From: Methylocystis sp. IM3
Lineage (GTDB): Bacteria > Pseudomonadota > Alphaproteobacteria > Rhizobiales > Beijerinckiaceae
NCBI RefSeq assembly: GCF_038070105.1
Contig: NZ_JBBPBZ010000004.1
Coordinates: 248,001 to 312,000 of the forward strand
Direction of reading: 5' to 3'
Length of the DNA: 64,000 bases
The notes under the pieces were generated by a model, which saw only the letters and a program-made list of their open reading frames with translations, searched no databases and had not been told where the DNA came from. Each line of letters opens with the position of its first letter. The stretch's first letter is position 1. The position numbers were made by a program, and so were the translations under genes. Below, one piece after another: positions 14,780 through 23,556 of the stretch.

Positions 14780-15290
14780 TTAGAATCCAGCGGTTTTGAA
14801 GAGGGTGTCGATGTCGATGGCGGCGCGCCACCTGGCGTTTTTGATGTTGTCGCAGCCGTCGGCACGTAGGAGATTATAAGCGAAGGAACGCAGGCGCGCG
14901 ACAATGTAGGGGTTCTTGCGGATGCGCAAGGCGTCCTCCGCAAACGCCGTGTCACGCACGTAATGACTGCCGTTTTCGATGCGCCAGTGGCCTCTGATCC
15001 ATTCGTTCCATTGCTCTGGTGTTGGACTATGAGCGGAAGAAACCCAAAAGACGACCTCGCTGGTTTGCCTGCAAAGGCCGGTCGAAGGGTCGCGCCGGCA
15101 GACCGTGCGCTGTAGCCGAATCACGGTTTTGATGAACGGCTCCCACGGCGTATGGCGGAACCACGCTTTGGCGGGAAAGACGGTCAACTCGCGTGTTTCC
15201 CAACGATTGCGACCCTTGGTTTCGCTTCTCGCAAAGCCGCTCGGCTTGCGGCCGACGGCGCCGAGTTCCAGCCTGCGGCGCAGACGGGGC
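14780..15290 (-). pseudogene. ISAs1 transposase, C-terminal part
   Basis: The sequence contains the family's GHWRIENGSHYVRDTAFAED block followed by ALRIRKNPYIVARLRSFAYN and the terminal KNARWRAAIDIDTL. Upstream, SETKGRNRWETRELTVFP matches the middle of ISAs1 transposases. Its 5' edge is the IS66 target duplication gacggggc at 15283-15290, and the missing N-terminal part is found beyond 22944. Confidence 0.85.
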
Positions 15291-15303
15291 GTAATCGCTG
15301 TTT

Positions 15304-15489
15304 TCAGGCCACGTCTTTGATTTCGACGGGTGGCGCGTAGGCCCACGGCATGAGTTCGTCGAGCTTGCTCGCGAGATGACCGTTGACAATCTTGGTGAGC
15401 ACGTCGGTCATGTAGGCGAGCGGATCAACGCCATTGAGCTTGGACGTTTCCATGAGCGAGGCGACGATCGCCCAGTTCTCGGCCCCGCC
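15304..15489 (-). pseudogene. tnpC: IS66 TnpC, C-terminal piece
   Basis: Reads GAENWAIVASLMETSKLNGV then DPLAYMTDVLTKIVNGH and ASKLDELMPWAY, the conserved C-terminus of IS66 DDE transposases, ending in a TGA at 15304. It follows on in frame from the short piece at 18080-18125 once the first recombinase module is removed. Confidence 0.85.
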
Positions 15490-15581
15490 ATCAGAACCGG
15501 GATCATAGTGCCGGGTTTCTGACATTCGAAGCGGAGGTCAGGTATCCTTTCCACCCGCTTGTCGGTCAGACGGTCCTGGTC

Positions 15582-15980
15582 GTGGGAGACCAGGTGCATG
15601 ACGGTGTTCGCTATTTCCTGATTCGTCAGTCGCACGGCGGTTCCTACCAAGTTCCTGAATGGATGTTTGATCAGGCGGCCGGCGGCTCTGCGATTGTAGC
15701 CGTTCCGCGACTTCCCATTGGCCAACTCATCCTCCTACGCGGGCTGGTCGATCACCTCATGGCCTATTCTCCCGGGACCAGAGACGCCGGAGGCATCGGC
15801 CATGAAGAAGTCGTCGCGCACGCAAATGGACTTGTTCGCCACACCTGCCGCACCGGCCGTGGAGTTGACCGGGTTCGAGCGGCAGAAGGCCGTGGCGCTT
15901 CTCCAGGCATTGCTGACCGAGGCGATGGCGACAGCGACGAGCAATTTAGCGGTCACGACCAAGCAGGAGGCAAGCGATGA
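15582..15980 (+). CDS. Module 1 ORF A, small conserved protein
   Basis: From the GTG at 15582 the protein runs MGDQVHDGVRYFLIRQSHGG, then VPEWMFDQAA and VPRLPIGQLILLRGLVDHLM. The W-M-(F/L)-D motif, the following P-R-(L/V) and the leucine-rich helix recur in ORF A of module 2. The two are therefore a family tied to these recombinases, and I recall similarly arranged small genes (Y4bD/Y4pK-type) beside recombinases on rhizobial plasmids. Only the first ~65 residues look conserved. The frame then continues through ORF B1 and may be non-native there, so the true end could be nearer 15790. Confidence 0.55.
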   Translation: MGDQVHDGVRYFLIRQSHGGSYQVPEWMFDQAAGGSAIVAVPRLPIGQLILLRGLVDHLMAYSPGTRDAGGIGHEEVVAHANGLVRHTCRTGRGVDRVRAAEGRGASPGIADRGDGDSDEQFSGHDQAGGKR

Positions 15981-15984
15981 GTAA
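15802..15984 (+). CDS. Module 1 ORF B, 60-aa protein
   Basis: Starts MKKSSRTQMDLFATPAAPAV and continues with ELTGFERQKAVALLQALLTE, a predicted amphipathic helix, then AMATATSNLAV. It overlaps the recombinase start by 8 bases, so the two are probably translationally coupled. The same arrangement occurs in module 2 (D-x-F or I-F-D segment, then ER-x(3)-(A/I)-x-L-x-x-(A/L)). I know of no function. Size and coupling suggest a cofactor or directionality partner of the recombinase, which is inference. Confidence 0.6.
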   Translation: MKKSSRTQMDLFATPAAPAVELTGFERQKAVALLQALLTEAMATATSNLAVTTKQEASDE

Positions 15985-18052
15985 AATCGCGCCCGACCAC
16001 CTCGCACGAGCCGCCTTCGTTTACGTGCGGCAGTCGACCGCCTACCAAGTGGCTAACAATCTCGAGAGCCAACGGCGCCAGTACGCTTTGGTCGAGCGAG
16101 CACGGCAGCTGGGCTGGAACGACGTCCAGCTCATCGACGATGATCTCGGCAAATCAGGCGGCGGCACGGTCCGGCCGGGATTTCAGAAGCTGTTGGCCGC
16201 GATCTGCGAAGGCCGCGTTGGCGCTGTCGTGTCACTGGAAGCTTCACGCCTGGCGCGGAACGGCCGTGATTGGCACACGTTACTTGAGTTCTGTGGCTTG
16301 GTCGGCACGCTAATCGTCGACGAAGATGCTGCCTATGATCCGCGTTCGCCCAATGACCGGCTATTGCTCGGTATGAAGGGCACCATGAGCGAGATGGAGC
16401 TATCGGTCTTCCGTCAGCGGTCCATCGAGGCTATGCGCCAGAAGGCGCGCCGCGGCGAACTCCACCTGACCGTCGCCGTCGGCTACTTGAAGACCGATGA
16501 CGACCGAATCGAAAAAGATCCTGATCGGCGTGTTCAAGACGGTATCTTGCTCGTCTTCCGCAAGTTCGCCGAACTCCAGTCGGTCCGCCAAGTCCTGCTT
16601 TGGTTCAGACAGGAGAACGTGCTCGTTCCCGCGATCATGCAAGGGCGCGGCAACCGCCCGATCGAATGGAAAACTCCTGTATATCACACGTTGTACCACG
16701 TCCTGACCAACCCGGTGTATGCCGGTTCCTACGCCTATGGCCGACGAGGAACCCGTGTGACGATCGAAGGCGGCCGGAAGCGGATCATGCGCGACAATCT
16801 CCGGCGCAACTGGAAGGACTGGCAGGTTTTGATCCATGATCACCATGAGGGCTATATTTCTTGGGCGGAGTTCGAGAGGAACCAGCACCTGATTGCCGAC
16901 AACGCCAATGGAAAGAGCTATATGGGCCGTGGCTCCGTAAGGCGCGGCGAAGCTTTGTTACCGGGACTATTCCGCTGCGCCCGCTGCGGCCGACGCCTGC
17001 ACATCCAATACACCGGCAAGGGTGGCAACACGCAACGCTATATCTGCCGCGGAGCCTTTAGCGCGAAAGCCGCCGACAACTGCATAGGCTTTGGCGGAAT
17101 GCGCGTTGATCGTCACGTCGCCCAGGAAGTGCTCGACCGGTTGCAACCCCTGGGGATAGAGGCGGCGCTAGCTGCGATGGAGGCCCAGACCGAGCGCCAA
17201 GGCGACAAACGCCAGCAGATCGAGAACGCCATTCAACAGGCCCAATACGAGGCAGCCCGGGCGCGTCGCCAATACGACGCCGTCGACCCCGACAATCGCA
17301 TGGTCGCCGGCGAGTTGGAGCGGCGCTGGAACGAGAAGCTGCTGCAGTTGCGCGATCTGGAGATGCAACTCCAGCAATTCAATCGGGCGAAGGAGACCCC
17401 TGCGCTCTCTGCCGAAGATCATGCAAAACTGATGACCCTTGGCAAGGACTTGGTCAAGGCGTGGAACAGTCAAGGCGCTTCGATCGAGACGCGCAAGAAG
17501 ATAATCAGGCTGCTTATCGAAGAGATTGTTGTCGACGTCGTCGGTGACACTCTGGCTCTCGTCATCCACTGGCAGGGCGGCGATCATACCGAGATGACCG
17601 TCAAGAAGAACAAGGTCGGGCAAACCCGCTGGACAGTCGCCGCTGATGTCGTTGATCTCGTTCGCGTGCTGGCGCGGCAACTGCCGGACTACGCGATCGC
17701 CGCCATATTAAATCGCTCCGGCAAATTGACGGGGCGCGGCGCGGCGTGGACGCGTGCCCATGTCTGCGGTCTCCGGAACACCAACGACATCCCCGTCTAT
17801 CGCGAAGGCGAACGAGTCGAGCGCGGCGAGATAACGCTCGACGAAGCAGCCGACGTTCTGCAAGTTAGTCGCGCGACGGTCTATCGGTTGATCACCAGCG
17901 GCGTGCTCCCAGCTCAGCAACTATGCCCCGGGGCGCCGTTGATAATCCGGCACGACGACGTGCAGCAGGACGGTGTCCGTCGTGAAGCCGAAGCGAGGCG
18001 CCGACGGCGTCCGAGATCTCAAAATCAGCTCCAAAAACTTCTTGATTTATAA
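15977..18052 (+). CDS. Large serine recombinase 1 with C-terminal HTH, 691 aa
   Basis: The N-terminal resolvase domain carries the catalytic serine in VYVRQST (Ser20) and the arginine cluster EASRLARNGRDW. The Recombinase domain (about 180-300) contains YHVLTNPVYAG. A zinc ribbon follows (CARCGRRLHIQYTG, later CRG and C-I-G-F-G-G), then a long coiled coil (about 400-470). Unusually, residues ~610-665 form an excisionase/MerR-type helix-turn-helix (LDEAADVLQVSRATVYRLIT). It probably catalyses integration and excision of module 1. ATG at 15977 overlaps ORF B1. It is about 40% similar by eye to recombinase 2 and has the same architecture. Confidence 0.9.
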   Translation: MSKIAPDHLARAAFVYVRQSTAYQVANNLESQRRQYALVERARQLGWNDVQLIDDDLGKSGGGTVRPGFQKLLAAICEGRVGAVVSLEASRLARNGRDWHTLLEFCGLVGTLIVDEDAAYDPRSPNDRLLLGMKGTMSEMELSVFRQRSIEAMRQKARRGELHLTVAVGYLKTDDDRIEKDPDRRVQDGILLVFRKFAELQSVRQVLLWFRQENVLVPAIMQGRGNRPIEWKTPVYHTLYHVLTNPVYAGSYAYGRRGTRVTIEGGRKRIMRDNLRRNWKDWQVLIHDHHEGYISWAEFERNQHLIADNANGKSYMGRGSVRRGEALLPGLFRCARCGRRLHIQYTGKGGNTQRYICRGAFSAKAADNCIGFGGMRVDRHVAQEVLDRLQPLGIEAALAAMEAQTERQGDKRQQIENAIQQAQYEAARARRQYDAVDPDNRMVAGELERRWNEKLLQLRDLEMQLQQFNRAKETPALSAEDHAKLMTLGKDLVKAWNSQGASIETRKKIIRLLIEEIVVDVVGDTLALVIHWQGGDHTEMTVKKNKVGQTRWTVAADVVDLVRVLARQLPDYAIAAILNRSGKLTGRGAAWTRAHVCGLRNTNDIPVYREGERVERGEITLDEAADVLQVSRATVYRLITSGVLPAQQLCPGAPLIIRHDDVQQDGVRREAEARRRRRPRSQNQLQKLLDL

Positions 18053-18079
18053 GGATATCGCCAGATGAGCAGTATGAAG

Positions 18080-18125
18080 CGCCTTCGTCCGAGCCGGCGA
18101 AGAGCGCGTTCTTGCGATTGAGCGC
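18080..18125 (-). pseudogene. tnpC: IS66 TnpC, 15-codon middle piece stranded between the two modules
   Basis: Read on the minus strand it encodes ALNRKNALFAGSDEG, the highly conserved IS66 segment that normally follows IRPI and precedes the (G)AENWA segment. Both neighbours in the protein are found across the flanking modules. This 46-base fragment is the strongest sign that two independent insertions occurred in one tnpC gene. Confidence 0.85.
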
Positions 18126-18160
18126 CATTACCCGTTCATTCTGCCCATGTCGGGCAGCAG

Positions 18161-18604
18161 TTGGAAGTCCATTACCGGTGGCACCCGTATTTTGGCAGCA
18201 AGGTTGCCGTCCGTCGTGTCGAGCAGCGAGCAACTGGGCAATTTCTTCAGGTGCTGGGGCCAGCCGGCGTTGTGGTCTCGATGGCGGGGTGGATGCTTGA
18301 TCCCGTCATCTGCGCCGGAATGACTTTTGGCGGCCCGCGCGTCGATCTCGCCGCACTCGTCGAGCTGGAACGACTGTTGATTGGTGCGATCAATCCCGCA
18401 CGGTGCCGGAGCGATGTTGCGATCGTTCCGGAGGAAGGCAATGCAATCTCCCAAAGCGTCGGCGGTGGAGCCGGCTCGGCAGCTGACCCTGATATTCGAC
18501 AACAACAAGCTGGAAAGGCTGGGCTCCGCGGAGCGGGACAAGATCATTTCGGCGTTGGCTCAGATCCTCATGCAGGCGGCTGGCCTCAGCGTAGAGGAGC
18601 TTGA
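18161..18604 (+). CDS. Module 2 ORF A, small conserved protein
   Basis: From a TTG near 18161 it reads VHYRWHPYFGSKVAVRRVEQ, then AGWMLDPVICAGM and PRVDLAALVELERLLIG. The WMLD and PRVDL motifs align with WMFD and PRLPI of ORF A1. The frame continues across ORF B2 to 18604, where the composition no longer looks constrained, so the native protein may end earlier. The start codon is uncertain. No function known. Confidence 0.5.
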   Translation: MEVHYRWHPYFGSKVAVRRVEQRATGQFLQVLGPAGVVVSMAGWMLDPVICAGMTFGGPRVDLAALVELERLLIGAINPARCRSDVAIVPEEGNAISQSVGGGAGSAADPDIRQQQAGKAGLRGAGQDHFGVGSDPHAGGWPQRRGA

Positions 18605-18620
18605 CGATGACAAGTGCTGA
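18441..18620 (+). CDS. Module 2 ORF B, 59-aa protein
   Basis: ATG at 18441 follows a ggagg site at 18430-18434. The protein begins MQSPKASAVEPARQLTLIFD and continues with LERLGSAERDKIISALAQIL and a short acidic tail (EELDDDKC). It overlaps the recombinase start by 14 bases. Its position, size and helix match ORF B1, though sequence identity is low. Confidence 0.6.
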   Translation: MQSPKASAVEPARQLTLIFDNNKLERLGSAERDKIISALAQILMQAAGLSVEELDDDKC

Positions 18621-20679
18621 AATGATTCCGGCGGTCATCCTCAAGAAGAAAGCTGTCGTCTATGTTCGTCAGTCGACGCAATCCCAGGTGATGACCAACC
18701 TGGAGGGCAAGCGCCGCCAATATGATCTGGTCGATGTCGCCCGCCAACACGGTTTCGTGGATGTTGAAATCATCGATGACGATCTCGGCCGGTCGGCGAG
18801 CGGAACGGTGGCGCGCCCCGGCTTTGACCGCTTGGTGGCATGGCTGTGCGCCGGGAAGGTCGGCGCTGTCTTGTGCTTCGATGCTTCCAGGCTCGCGCGA
18901 AACGGTCGCGATTGGCATCATCTGCTTGAATTGTGTGGGCTTGTCGAAGCCCGCGTCATTGATGGCGAGGGGGTCTATAACCCGTGTCGCCCCAATGATC
19001 GCTTACTCCTTGGCATGAAAGGCAGCATCAGCGAGTTCGAACTCGGCGTGCTACGCACCAGGATGTTGGACGCCGCCCGGTCCAAGGCCAGCAGGGGCGA
19101 GCTTCGCTTGTCGGTTCCGTTCGGCTACATCTGGCACCGGGAAGCAGGGCTTGGCCTTGATCCCGATCGACGTCTCCAGGAGGTCATTCGCCTCATCTTC
19201 GTCCGCTTTCGTGAACTCGGCAGCGCGCGCCAAGTTCTGCTCTCGATGAAAGCCGATCATATCCACTTCCCACGTCCCTCAGATGAGCGCCGCATGACGA
19301 GCTTCGACTGGACGCCTATCCGCTACCGCAATGTGATCGCCGTTCTCAAGAATCCCTTCTACGCCGGGGTCTACGTTTACGGGAAAAGTGAGAAACGCAC
19401 CTCCATTGTCGACGGAAGGGCGCGACGGAGCTACGGGCATGGCAAGCCGATCGGGACATGGGAGGTGATGATCAAGGATCATCACGAAGGCTATATCCAG
19501 TGGGCGGAATATGAGCGCAACCAGAAGCAGCTCGCCCTCAACAATTACGGCCATGCCGGAGGCGCGAAGTCTGGCCGGGGCGGCAAGGCGCTTTTGTCAG
19601 GCATCATGACTTGCCGTCGATGCGGACGGCGACTGAGCGTCGCATATACGGGCAATCCTCAGAGTCGGCCGGTATATCGCTGCGACAAACCAAACCTTAT
19701 GATGGGGCTGCCACGGTGCATGACCTTCGGCGGCCCGCGGGTCGATGCGGCTGTCTCCCGGGAGTTGTTGCTGGCGGTGGAGCCAATGGCGATTGCGGCG
19801 GCTTTCGAGGCGGAGCGGATGCACCGGGAACAACAGGAAGACCAGCAACGCATCTTGGACATGGAAATGCAGCAGGCTCGCTATGAGGCAAGTCTGGCCG
19901 AGCGTCGTTATGCGGCCTGCGATCCCGACAATCGTCTCATTGCCGCGCAACTAGAAAAAAACTGGGAGACGGCGCTGCGGCGTGTCCGCGAACTGGAGAT
20001 GCGCCAGCCCGCGGAACGGCCATCAGTCCTCGAGGTCGACCCGAGCGCCTTCACGAACCTGGCGGATAATCTGTCGGCAGCATGGCATGCGCCGAACGTA
20101 ACGATGCGTGCCCGACAACAACTGCTGCGGACATTGATCGCCGACATCATCGTCGACGTCGACGACGACGCGCGCGAGGTCGTGCTGACGATTCATTGGC
20201 GTGGCGGTCAGCATTCCGAACTGCGCGTCCGTAAACCACGGGCTGGCGAGCATGGTTGCGCGACGACAGAGGACGCTTTGGCGGTCATGCGAAGCATGGC
20301 CGGTCGCTGGTCGGACGAGCATATCGCCGCGTCGCTCAATCGAATGGGCATGCCCACAGGCCAAGGCAAAACCTGGACAGCGCATCGCGTTGCTTCCGTT
20401 CGACGCGTGCGTGGAATCCATGCCTATCGATCGGCGGAAAAGGACGGCGAATGGCTCACCATGAGGGAGGCGGCAAAGCTGTTAGGCGTCACACACCATA
20501 CGATTCGGCGCCTGATCAAAACGGGTGTCCTTCCTGCGGTGCAGGTTGTCGCCGGAGCCCCGCATCAAATACGGGCCGAGGACTTGGCGTCGGACCCGGT
20601 GAAAATGGCGGTGGCCCGTAAAGGTCGCCCGTGTCGCGCTGTTGACGCGGGCACGCTTCCAATGTTTCCAGATACTTAA
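18607..20679 (+). CDS. Large serine recombinase 2 with C-terminal HTH, 690 aa
   Basis: The resolvase catalytic motif is VYVRQST (Ser23 from the ATG at 18607; a TTG at 18601 is possible). DASRLARNGRDWHHLLELCG follows, then the Recombinase domain with VLKNPFYAGVYVYG, a zinc ribbon (CRRCGRRLSVAYTG then VYRC and C-M-T-F-G-G), a coiled coil and a C-terminal MerR/excisionase-type HTH (LTMREAAKLLGVTHHTIRRL). Role: probable integrase/excisionase of module 2. The fused HTH is shared with recombinase 1 and absent from most phage serine integrases, and could make directionality intrinsic (inference). Confidence 0.9.
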   Translation: MTSAEMIPAVILKKKAVVYVRQSTQSQVMTNLEGKRRQYDLVDVARQHGFVDVEIIDDDLGRSASGTVARPGFDRLVAWLCAGKVGAVLCFDASRLARNGRDWHHLLELCGLVEARVIDGEGVYNPCRPNDRLLLGMKGSISEFELGVLRTRMLDAARSKASRGELRLSVPFGYIWHREAGLGLDPDRRLQEVIRLIFVRFRELGSARQVLLSMKADHIHFPRPSDERRMTSFDWTPIRYRNVIAVLKNPFYAGVYVYGKSEKRTSIVDGRARRSYGHGKPIGTWEVMIKDHHEGYIQWAEYERNQKQLALNNYGHAGGAKSGRGGKALLSGIMTCRRCGRRLSVAYTGNPQSRPVYRCDKPNLMMGLPRCMTFGGPRVDAAVSRELLLAVEPMAIAAAFEAERMHREQQEDQQRILDMEMQQARYEASLAERRYAACDPDNRLIAAQLEKNWETALRRVRELEMRQPAERPSVLEVDPSAFTNLADNLSAAWHAPNVTMRARQQLLRTLIADIIVDVDDDAREVVLTIHWRGGQHSELRVRKPRAGEHGCATTEDALAVMRSMAGRWSDEHIAASLNRMGMPTGQGKTWTAHRVASVRRVRGIHAYRSAEKDGEWLTMREAAKLLGVTHHTIRRLIKTGVLPAVQVVAGAPHQIRAEDLASDPVKMAVARKGRPCRAVDAGTLPMFPDT

Positions 20680-20706
20680 AGAAAGGGCGCACAATGACTC
20701 ACGCAT

Positions 20707-22017
20707 CGCAATGGGACGGATCGTGCGCTCGACGATGTTGGAGTCGATTTCGATGCGCCCGTCGTCGAGGAAGCGCGTCAGCCCGTCCCAGCGCGACAGC
20801 GCATAGCGGATCGCGTCGGCAAGTTTCGTCTTTTGGCTGATGAGCGCGAGTCTCTCGCGCAGCCAGGGTTCAAGCTCGGCGAGGACCGGGCGAGATTTTT
20901 CCTGTCGCGCATCACGACGCTCGTCGGGAGCCCGACCGCGGATTTGGCTTTCAATGGAATAGAGCGCGCCGATGCGCTCGAGCGCCTCGCTGGCGGTCGG
21001 CGCAGGACCCGCTGCCGCGAGTTCGTAAAAGCGGCGCCGGACGTGCGCCCAGCAGAAGGCGAGCGACACGCTGTTCTTCTGCGCCAGCGCGCGATAGCCG
21101 GCGTAGCCGTCCACCTGGACGACGCCTGCGAAGCCGGCGAGATGGGCGAGCGGCTGCTCGGATTTACGGTTTTGCGCATAGACATAGACGGCGAGTGGCG
21201 GATCGGCGCCACCCCATGGCCGATTGTCTCTCGCGTAAGCCCAGAGCTGGCCGGTCTTGGTGCGCCCGCGTCCAGGGTCGAGCACCGGCGCCCTCGTCTC
21301 GTCGGCGAAGATTTTCGTGGAAGACCTGATGTGTTCCAGGAGGCGCTCGTGCAGGGGCCGCAAATGCCAAGCGGCGCGGCCAACCCAGTCGGCGAGCGTC
21401 GAACGGTCGAGCGCGATCCCCTGCCGGGCGTAGATCTGGGCCTGGCGATAAAGAGGAAGATGGTCGGCGTATTTGGAAACGAGCACGTGGGCGACTGTCG
21501 CCTCGGTCGGCAGGCCGCCTTCAATCAGTCGCGCCGGGGCCGGCGCCTGCACCACCGCACCCTCACAGGCCCGGCAGGCGTATTTGGGCCGGCGCGTCAC
21601 GAGCACCCGGAACTGCGCCGGAACGACATCGACCCGCTCGGAAACATCTTCGCCGATCTGGTGCGACAGGCCCTTGCAGCAGGGGCAGGCCTTGTCCTCG
21701 ATATCGACGACGCTCTCGACGCGCGGGAGATGTGCGGGCAACGCGCCCCGGTTCGTACGACGCTTTCTGGCCGCCTTCTCACGTTCAGGCGCAGAGCCGG
21801 CTTCTACTTCCGCGGCCGCGGCGGCCTCCGTCTGCTCGACCTCTTCGAGCGCGAGCAGCATTTGGTCTTCGGGGAGCGTCTCGGCGCGACGCCCAAAGCG
21901 ATGGCGCTGCATCTCCTTGATGATCTGAACGAGGCGCTCGTTGCGCGCCCGCTCGGCGAGAAGCATCGCCTTCAGCTCGTTCGGGTCGTCGGGAAGTTTC
22001 TCGATCGCCTGCGCCAT
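20707..22017 (-). pseudogene. tnpC: IS66 TnpC, N-terminal 437 codons
   Basis: Starts MAQAIEKLPDDPNELKAMLL with the usual N-terminal leucine zipper, then a zinc-binding segment (DKACPCCKGLSHQIGEDVSE, CRAC) and the DDE domain (KIFADETRAPVLDPGRGRTK, VQVDGYAGYRAL, CWAHVRRRFYELA, NIVERTIRPIA). The authentic sequence stops at IRPIA (20707); the frame then runs antisense through the recombinase gene, so the apparent 511-residue product is a chimera. 437 codons plus the two stranded pieces make 511-512 codons, the family length. Confidence 0.9.
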
Positions 22018-22086
22018 GGGGGCAGAAGACCATATTTCGCGCTGCCTTTCGACGATCTTCGACGCCCTGATTCACTGTGTCGCGGC

Positions 22087-22440
22087 TCATCCGGGCAATG
22101 CCGGCGCCGGCGTCTCTTTTGTATGCACGCGCTTCCAATCGAGCCCCTCGAGCAGAGCCGAAAACTGCGTCGCGGAGAGTCGTATCGTTCCGTCTTCGAT
22201 CTTCGGCCAGCGAAACTCGCCATCCTCAAGCCGCTTGGCGAAGAGGCAGACGCCCGTGCCGTCCCAGTAGATCAACTTGATCCGATCCGCGCGCTTGGCT
22301 CGGAAAACGTAGATGGCCCCGTCGAAAGGGTCCCCTCTTATCGTTTCACGCACCAGGGCGGCGAGACCTTCGGCGCCCTTGCGAAAGTCCACCGGCTTCG
22401 TCGCCACCATCACGCGCATCGCGCCAGTCGGGCCGATCAT
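22087..22440 (-). CDS. tnpB: IS66 TnpB
   Basis: A 117-residue protein starting MIGPTGAMRVMVATKPVDFR and containing VRETIRGDPFDGAIYVFRAK and LIYWDGTGVCLFAKRL, the IS66 Orf2 signature. It starts with a 4-base ATGA overlap with tnpA, indicating coupling. TnpB is required for IS66 transposition, but its mechanism is not known. Intact. Confidence 0.9.
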   Translation of the reverse strand: MIGPTGAMRVMVATKPVDFRKGAEGLAALVRETIRGDPFDGAIYVFRAKRADRIKLIYWDGTGVCLFAKRLEDGEFRWPKIEDGTIRLSATQFSALLEGLDWKRVHTKETPAPALPG

Positions 22441-22868
22441 GACCGGGCTTTCAATGCGTCGATAATGGCCGTGACCATGCCGAGATCGGCATCGCGCCAG
22501 ATCCAAACGCTCGCGCCATCAACGTCGAGTTCGACCACATGCGCCCCCACCGTTACCGCCTTGCGCTCCGACCGTAGCGCCGCCGGCGCTGTCCCTCTCG
22601 GCTCAACAACGACCCGCGCAAAGGCAACCCCATCGGAAGCCGCCGCCTTTTGCCGTGCTTCGCGCCGCCAGGTGAACAATTGCTGCGGGCTCAAACCCCG
22701 CCGCCGGGCAACCTGCGAGACAACCACGCCAGGCTGCAACGATTCCTCTACGGCTTCCGCCTTCTCGTCATCCGACCATCGGCGCCGGCGTTCCCCGCCG
22801 CCGGTGATCACTTCAATGCGCTGGACAGTCTCGCCTTTAGGGTCAAGCCGATGATCAAGTCTGGACAC
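22437..22868 (-). CDS. tnpA: IS66 TnpA
   Basis: A 143-residue protein from GTG at 22868, beginning MSRLDHRLDPKGETVQRIEV. It has a helix-turn-helix of the IS66 Orf1 type (RRRWSDDEKAEAVEESLQPG through ARRRGLSPQQLFTWRREAR). A nearly identical 5' part of this gene occurs at 61216-61578. Intact. Confidence 0.9.
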   Translation of the reverse strand: MSRLDHRLDPKGETVQRIEVITGGGERRRRWSDDEKAEAVEESLQPGVVVSQVARRRGLSPQQLFTWRREARQKAAASDGVAFARVVVEPRGTAPAALRSERKAVTVGAHVVELDVDGASVWIWRDADLGMVTAIIDALKARS

Positions 22869-22944
22869 AAGCCTTACCTCCTGCAGGAGATCAGACTCGC
22901 AGCTGTCGCTCCAGTTTTGAAGGTGCGGTCAGAACAGCGCTAAC

Positions 22945-23556
22945 GACGGGGCTAATTGCCCTTCACCTGCGTCAGCAGATCATTGCCCGAGGCAATCACG
23001 CGTTGGAACAATTTTTTTGACAGTGCTCGGCGTCGAGGGTGAACAGGCAGTCGGTCAATCCCAGCGCCTCGATCAACTCCGGCGCAGCGGGAATTTCGTT
23101 GCTCTTTTCGGCGACCATCACATGCGCGAGCACGATCCTGTCGGCATGGCGCAGCGCCGACATCATATGCGCGGCCTTGCAGTCGGCAAAGGCGTCGAAG
23201 CTACCGCGTAGCGTCTTGCCATCGACGGCGATCGCGGTCAGCCCTGACTCAACGGGCGGCGTCAGCACGTCTGCGGCATGGCACCGAAAAGCCGCCTCCA
23301 GCGCGTTCGGATCGACGCCTCGCAGGATTAGCCGCAAGCCGGTGTAGGACGACGTACAAGGCAGCTCCAGATCAAAGGCGTCGTTCAGCCGTAGGCGGTG
23401 AATGCGAATGAACTCGTGCATCTGCCGATAGGAGTTGGTGCCGGCGACCATCGCGAGGATGGCGTAGAGCAGCACCGTCGACAAATCGAAACGCTTGCCT
23501 TCCCGGCGACGATAGTCAGGTATCTCGCGCAAAATCTCCAGCAGCGTCACCTGCAT
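22945..23556 (-). pseudogene. ISAs1 transposase, N-terminal part
   Basis: Starts MQVTLLEILREIPDYRRREG and contains YRQMHEFIRIHRLRLNDAFD, TAIAVDGKTLRGSFDAF and LFTLDAEHCQK, all diagnostic for ISAs1. A frame slip in a run of A residues near 23005 and a TAG in the following VKGN-PR segment had already damaged it before or after the IS66 insertion. The 3' half resumes at 15290. Confidence 0.85.

Follow-up and report, generated by a model that had tools for sequence, protein, structure and literature searches.

Two large serine recombinase modules split the tnpC gene of an IS66 element in Methylocystis sp. IM3 and probably belong to a family that targets mobile elements

Two modules interrupt one IS66 transposase gene

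We analyzed 64,000 nucleotides of Methylocystis sp. IM3 DNA (the window; NCBI RefSeq assembly GCF_038070105.1, contig NZ_JBBPBZ010000004.1, positions 248,001 to 312,000 of the forward strand), in which two intact modules of ~2.6 kb interrupt tnpC, the transposase gene of an insertion sequence (IS) of the IS66 family. The modules are 2597 bp (module 1) and 2584 bp (module 2) long, and each consists of a large serine recombinase (LSR) of ~690 amino acids and two small open reading frames (ORFs). The window holds one IS66 element, with imperfect terminal repeats beginning GTAA/GTTA and an 8-bp target duplication, and by Pfam it carries tnpA, tnpB and a tnpC in three pieces. The host thus has the terminal inverted repeats and target duplication of a classical DDE IS, while the modules have no DDE gene and only a 2-bp core common to both ends. 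A preliminary description of this DNA had already proposed two inserts cutting tnpC, which is borne out, but its piece lengths of 1311, 46 and 186 bases become 1310, 36 and 187. The features are as follows.

15291-22944, minus strand: IS66-family element, host of both modules (imperfect terminal repeats, 8-bp direct repeat, TnpA/TnpB/TnpC Pfam domains)
15283-15290, no strand: left copy of the IS66 target duplication, GACGGGGC (direct repeat)
22945-22952, no strand: right copy of the IS66 target duplication, GACGGGGC (direct repeat)
20708-22017, minus strand: tnpC piece 1, 1310 nt (DDE_Tnp_IS66; ends at residue 437 as in relatives; joining restores the frame)
18088-18123, minus strand: tnpC piece 2, 36 nt, between both modules (joining gives FAGSDGGAENWA)
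15304-15490, minus strand: tnpC piece 3, C-terminal, 187 nt (DDE_Tnp_IS66_C; joining)
18124-20709, plus strand: module 2, the site-A element, 2584 bp not counting the second core copy (GC cores at 18124-18125 and 20708-20709; symmetric ends)
15491-18089, plus strand: module 1, the site-B element, 2597 bp not counting the second core copy (TC cores at 15491-15492 and 18088-18089; symmetric ends)
18601-20679, plus strand: recombinase 2, an LSR, ATG probably at 18607 (Resolvase, Recombinase, Zn_ribbon_recom, HTH_17; TIGR01764; YVRQS, SRLARNGRD)
15977-18052, plus strand: recombinase 1, an LSR (same domains as recombinase 2; YVRQS, SRLARNGRD)

The two recombinases are 44-45% identical, and both frames are open over their full ~690 codons. 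Each has the domains of an LSR integrative element (an N-terminal Resolvase domain, Recombinase and a zinc ribbon), the catalytic serine motifs YVRQS and SRLARNGRD, and an HTH_17 domain. Both have a C-terminal domain that passes the NCBIfam cut-off of TIGR01764, "excisionase family DNA-binding protein"; the recombinase may carry its own excisionase. DUF4368 was absent from the Pfam matches of both recombinases at E-values up to 0.01, and the IS607 transposase model NF033518 gave 21.0 and 17.7 bits, below its cut-off of 110. The nearest protein to recombinase 1 is 97% identical and comes from a metagenome-assembled genome of Methylocystis silviterrae. An AlphaFold model of recombinase 1, built from 15 sequences, had a mean predicted local distance difference test score of 59.6, too poor for a fold search.

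Borders, cores and end design

We placed the cores by end symmetry in both elements and by comparison with relatives. Measured against these positions, the junctions first proposed (15489/18080 and 18125/20707) deviate by as many as 9 bases. When the three pieces were joined at the cores, they gave 1310 + 36 + 187 = 1533 nt, that is, 511 codons including a single terminal stop, and the protein reads RPIALNRKNALFAGSDGGAENW. The frame is therefore restored, as the preliminary description had it, with its alternative of 511 codons and not the 512 (1536 bases) that it gave first, and its junction reading SDEG(G)AENW is replaced by FAGSDGGAENWA. No target duplication beyond the 2-bp core is present at the module junctions, which, together with the empty sites in relatives described below, upholds the earlier view of conservative insertion.

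Both modules have a common end design, CANNATGA-N10-core-N10-TCATNNTG, with the following arms, all identified by end-symmetry comparison.

18136-18143, plus strand: left arm of module 2, TCATTCTG
20690-20697, plus strand: right arm of module 2, CACAATGA
15503-15510, plus strand: left arm of module 1, TCATAGTG
18070-18077, plus strand: right arm of module 1, CAGTATGA

The phage-type attachment site (attP) that these ends would form has dyad symmetry, with matches at 12 of 30 positions in module 2 and 15 of 30 in module 1 that are concentrated in the arms, counts that come without a shuffled control. At site A, used by module 2, the core falls within the Ala codon of RPIA-LNRK and reads GC; at site B, used by module 1, it falls within the Asp codon of FAGSD and reads GA/TC. 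Since the sites lie 36 bp apart, one IS66 can hold both modules. Among 30 two-sided relatives of module 2 (the window, L001, L002, L007, L029, L099 and L111-L115 being omitted), left and right junctions agreed at base +1 of the Ala codon in 30 and at base +2 in 23, versus 10 at base 0, and the core was taken as GC on this basis. The module 1 core was placed at the GA/TC of the Asp codon by the relatives L099 and L111-L115. A CC core was also considered for module 1 and rejected, because it gives a join without the canonical spacing, which the TC core provides.

Relatives recur at the same two sites

Among the 70 recombinase-2 relatives located in genome contigs, a tnpC piece lay beside the recombinase in 60, and the tnpC edge fell at residue 434-437 in 55 of the 70, in TnpC hosts down to 33% identity with the window's TnpC. 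At antiparallel loci with an N-terminal tnpC piece, the distance from the last matched recombinase codon was 31-40 bp in 52 of 53 cases and 60 bp in the other. The match ended at residue 427 in L073, and only the C-terminal piece was found in L035, L072 and L075. Relative to tnpC, 55 of the 60 were antiparallel and 5 parallel; L017, L152 and L153 are further parallel copies.

Joined sequences were then counted where the arms were in the correct register, leaving out L077 and the out-of-register L069. Of these 34 site-A loci, 33 span TnpC, 29 of them gap-free, and the 34th is L049. The two core copies were equal in 32 (GC in 25, CC in 5, AC in 2), and the other two had GT versus GC. L052 and L053 represent one insertion shared by two species, with identical flanks, and are not independent. 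Relatives of recombinase 1 were found at site B on both sides in L099 and L111-L115, and on one side in L157 and L158. Judged from these sequence comparisons, the recurrence at both sites excludes chance as the source of the arrangement.

Empty sites match the predicted joins

The genome search for tnpC with and without the modules, suggested in the preliminary description, found both states, and the junctions define the cores as well as attP and its bacterial counterpart, attB. For the empty state, joined sequences of 300 nt were compared with plasmid records. Scarless empty sites, exact or near-exact, were found for relatives of both modules; in the window, scarlessness is read from the join only. 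At site B, the joined sequence of L111 (Bradyrhizobium barranii) was identical over 300 of 300 nt in at least 12 records and at least 99% identical in at least 27. The same empty site occurs elsewhere on L111's own plasmid, NZ_CP088278.1, in an intact tnpC; against this intact IS66, joined L111 gave a single alignment (2267 nt, 99.87%), and L111 with its module in place aligned in two pieces. At site A, the empty site of L054 was found at 99.3% in Sinorhizobium fredii NZ_CP035039.1. Empty sites were also found for relatives in other genes: at 100% for L116 in IS21 istB, including another plasmid of the same strain; at 99.7% for L132 in IS66 tnpB, on the same strain's replicons; and at 99.0% for L122 in IS3, where the border was located by searching the IS3 motif across the join. 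Together with the recurrence, the empty sites for relatives of both modules support the earlier proposal of site-specific elements that use tnpC as an attachment site.

Relatives have moved recently

Rhizobium johnstonii 3841 contains three copies of 2581 bp that are 100% identical and lie in three dissimilar tnpC genes, whose 400-bp flanks had no match except 49 bp at 80% in one pair. Similarly, two copies of 2594 bp in B. barranii 323S2 are 99.96% identical and lie on two plasmids, in flanks without a match. Because identical copies occupy unlike tnpC contexts, relatives of the modules have moved recently. Nor are the modules a fixed pair: each falls in its own clade, and Methylocystis sp. 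L43 has a related IS66 with site A filled and site B empty.

Targets differ between clades of the wider family

Other relatives were found in other genes of mobile elements. Recombinase-1 relatives at 53-66% identity lie in the Walker A codons of IS21 istB, on both sides in L100, L116, L118, L119 and L120 and on one side in L117. The following relatives are more distant. A second istB position, near residue 215, is used in L105, L127 and L129 (both sides) and L125 (one side), and L126 lies in istA, with a weak right side. IS66 tnpB is the target in L121, L132 and L150, and L151 lies between tnpB and tnpC pieces. IS3 orfB is interrupted at its DYN codons in L122, L123, L134, L135 and L143, IS91 in L139, and IS110 in L142, where one of the two pieces is below the Pfam cut-off. 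Reverse transcriptase genes of group II introns are targets in L124, L128, L154 and for a second LSR of L114. This second, more distant recombinase (L114:8197-11674) is flanked by two pieces with a reverse transcriptase annotation, of which the second begins just before SPLLANIFLH. In a sub-group comprising L126, L128, L147 and L150, a DUF5372-type ORF and an extra helix-turn-helix or DUF6788 ORF precede the recombinase.

To gauge the spread of targets, 33 places were sampled from genomes drawn by order, class and phylum, with the best 2-4 candidates per genome scored at E-value limits of 1e-100 or 1e-80, and tallied by hand. Sixteen were in a mobile element read on both sides, 4 in one read on one side, and 1 interrupted a nucleoside hydrolase gene.

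For the phylogeny, 59 recombinases were placed in a tree by a quick method, with branch support from the SH-like approximate likelihood ratio test only. Site-A users formed one clade (support 100), the sister of which uses IS66 tnpB (95), and site-B users formed another (100), grouped with two istB users (98) and thus set among those that use istB Walker A, so that IS66 tnpC is used by two separate lineages. The target labels required 18 changes over 15 groups, with "unknown" treated as one group, versus a mean of 39.0 for shuffled labels, and 0 of 200 shuffles were as low. Not every target forms one clade: reverse transcriptase users occupy two places in the tree, and IS3 users need three changes. 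As read from this tree, clades specialize by target, namely tnpC (two lineages), tnpB, IS21 istB and IS3. The label of L137 as IS630 was dropped, since no element edge was found inside the adjacent IS630, and so was that of L146, which has different families on its two sides; L143, unlabeled in the tree, is now assigned to IS3.

Small ORFs and other IS66 sequences

The remaining frames of the modules and of the host are listed here.

18441-18620, plus strand: 59-aa ORF overlapping the recombinase 2 start (matches upstream of many relatives; no family above cut-off)
15802-15984, plus strand: 60-aa ORF overlapping the recombinase 1 start (42-45% matches in L099, L111 and L112; start/stop overlap)
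15537-15758, plus strand: DUF5372-type frame in module 1, start codon uncertain (PF17342, 29.3 bits versus a cut-off of 25)
18161-18604, plus strand: module 2 ORF at the equivalent place (no Pfam match; DUF5372 likeness by eye only)
22087-22506, minus strand: IS66 tnpB reading frame (TnpB_IS66)
22437-22868, minus strand: IS66 tnpA reading frame (HTH_Tnp_1)

At 15304-15525 on the minus strand, the C-terminal tnpC piece is preceded in frame by an ATG and the residues MSETRHYDP, which come from the left end of module 1; similar fusions occur in L111-L114 (MSETRHYGP, MPETRHYEP). The IS66 element is itself inserted in another transposase gene, which we take to be of the ISAs1 family, with DDE_Tnp_1_assoc on one side and a sub-threshold DDE_Tnp_1 match on the other (Pfam). 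Elsewhere in the same genome there is an 86%-identical IS66 relative with sites A and B both empty, but frameshifted. Another IS66 transposase, 41% identical to TnpC and without an internal stop, gave six matches of equal score and identity, at C2:637528, C2:1547386, C2:2405405, C4:287053, C4:311422 and C5:271051. The genome also has two broken family members, one at C4:234640-237966 (L003-L005), with one recombinase in three pieces, and one at C1:330068-330241 (L006), an N-terminal recombinase fragment (86% identity to recombinase 2) accompanied by its small ORF.

Interpretation and alternatives

Each module is, we believe with high confidence, an independent, IS-sized integrative element that is run by its LSR and preys on other mobile elements. 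An active recombinase would excise the module as a circle, whose attP (CANNATGA-N10-core-N10-TCATNNTG) would synapse with an attB located within a conserved part of a transposition gene, and strand exchange at the 2-bp core would give scarless insertion. The module 2 clade uses tnpC site A and the module 1 clade site B, the target being fixed within each of these clades and different between them. Insertion splits tnpC, presumably disabling the IS66, and precise excision would restore it. The C-terminal excisionase-type domain and the ~60-aa protein are candidates for controlling direction. On a broader scale, and with somewhat less assurance, we think it probable that a large, as yet unnamed clan of minimal serine-recombinase elements parasitizes mobile elements, using clade-specific attB sites that have evolved within conserved codons of IS66 tnpC (twice) and tnpB, IS21 istA/istB, IS3 orfB, IS91, IS110 and group II intron reverse transcriptase genes; such elements would hop between unrelated IS, switching their hosts off and possibly on again, and would thus act as a reversible brake on transposition.

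Several observations weigh against this explanation. No attP circle was found, in viral contigs and 397 genomes for site A and in viral contigs only for site B. The sites had been described as lying in the most conserved part of tnpC, but across 94 loci the 25 best 13-residue windows were at residues 178-217, 320-334 and 409-431, and both sites are outside them, the last window ending just before site A. The palindromic GC core should permit both orientations equally, yet there is an antiparallel bias. The two junctions disagree at base +2 in 7 of 30 loci and agree in 28 of 30 at base +4, outside the core, a match that we attribute to two A residues conserved independently. In L083 the tnpC boundary is at residue 273 instead of site A, and no tnpC was found at 10 of the 70 recombinase-2 relatives; L082, L097 and L098 among these are at contig ends and L049 has a decayed tnpC, which leaves L071, L084, L089, L091, L094 and L095 unexplained. 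For 27 of 118 rows, several of which are truncated at a contig end, the end rule found no arm pair, and it gave a wrong or unrecognized pair in further rows, with a wrong left arm still picked in some (e.g., L029-L031, L039 and L074). Some empty-site matches were weaker (88% for L048; 93.7% for L113, the best among the matches listed), 12 of the 33 sampled places remained unresolved, and L147:2227-6730 lies inside the nucleoside hydrolase gene, the sole clear cellular target seen.

The alternative that survives best, though we regard it as unlikely, is that the modules are dead remains of LSR elements, in which case a reversible switch would not apply at the window locus. The failure to find circles in the collections named above is consistent with this, as are the broken family members in the same genome (L003-L006) and the presence of at least one relative in a decayed tnpC (L049). 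However, both window recombinases are open over ~690 amino acids with their serine motif, both ends and cores are in place, joining gives an open tnpC, and identical copies elsewhere point to recent movement of relatives. A far less probable possibility is that the recombinase genes are passengers captured and used by IS66, for example as a resolvase, so that the unit would be a composite IS66. The location of the modules inside IS66 ends with an intact target duplication, and of many relatives within IS66, could be explained in this way, but the modules split tnpC instead of adjoining it, identical modules lie in IS66 copies with little or no match in flanking DNA, related modules occupy IS21, IS3, IS91, IS110 and group II intron genes, and intact, module-free IS copies are found on the same plasmid. 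We likewise give very little weight to the idea that these are loosely specific, broadly targeting LSRs that land in IS genes because IS abound on plasmids, since, despite the many kinds of host across the family, the one cellular target and the 12 unresolved places, the insertion point is constant to the base pair in the best-studied clades (site A, site B, istB Walker A and the IS3 DYN codons), target labels cluster on the tree (18 changes versus a shuffled mean of 39.0), and the Pfam matches do not include DUF4368, the marker of the multi-targeting LSR clade in Durrant et al. (2022, PMC10083194).

If the modules are independent elements that prey on mobile elements, they point to site-specific integrases evolved to hunt transposons. 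A transposon is present in many copies, moves, and is dispensable to the cell, so that as a target it would offer the element many landing sites, and the cell may gain a silenced IS. Since the sequence gives attB and attP at base-pair resolution, two questions become testable: how LSRs change their specificity, with tnpC reached here by two separate lineages, one of them among istB users, and whether hyperparasites of this kind curb the spread of IS. The elements also offer natural attP/attB pairs whose cores are defined, and possibly a fusion of integrase and excisionase.

Comparison with known systems

We take phiC31, Bxb1 and Tn4451 as the named LSR integrative elements for comparison. TnpX and YokA chains were matched, and the XisF and Ccr models were matched below their cut-offs. 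The modules resemble LSR elements in general in their Resolvase, Recombinase and zinc-ribbon domains, 2-bp core, scarless insertion and symmetric attP. They differ in their size of ~2.6 kb with only two small ORFs beside the recombinase, in the excisionase-type domain at the recombinase C-terminus, and in having a gene of another mobile element as target. Among the matches listed in a search of open-access titles and abstracts, a scope outside which most subscription papers, preprints and ISfinder lie, there were no serine-recombinase elements targeting IS66 tnpC or other transposase genes. According to the available part of one survey, distantly related LSRs have conserved gene targets in common (Durrant et al. 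2022, PMC10083194); the modules are similar in this respect, and that part of the survey mentions no transposase target. The group II intron RmInt1 lives in ISRm2011-2 and has been proposed to limit IS spread (PMC4238363). The modules are like RmInt1 in being mobile elements that reside inside an insertion sequence, but RmInt1 is a self-splicing RNA element, whereas the modules would use DNA recombination, without splicing, and the host gene is simply split. Finally, the modules are like the IS607 family in being IS-sized elements moved by a serine recombinase, and unlike it in having a large recombinase and a fixed gene target.

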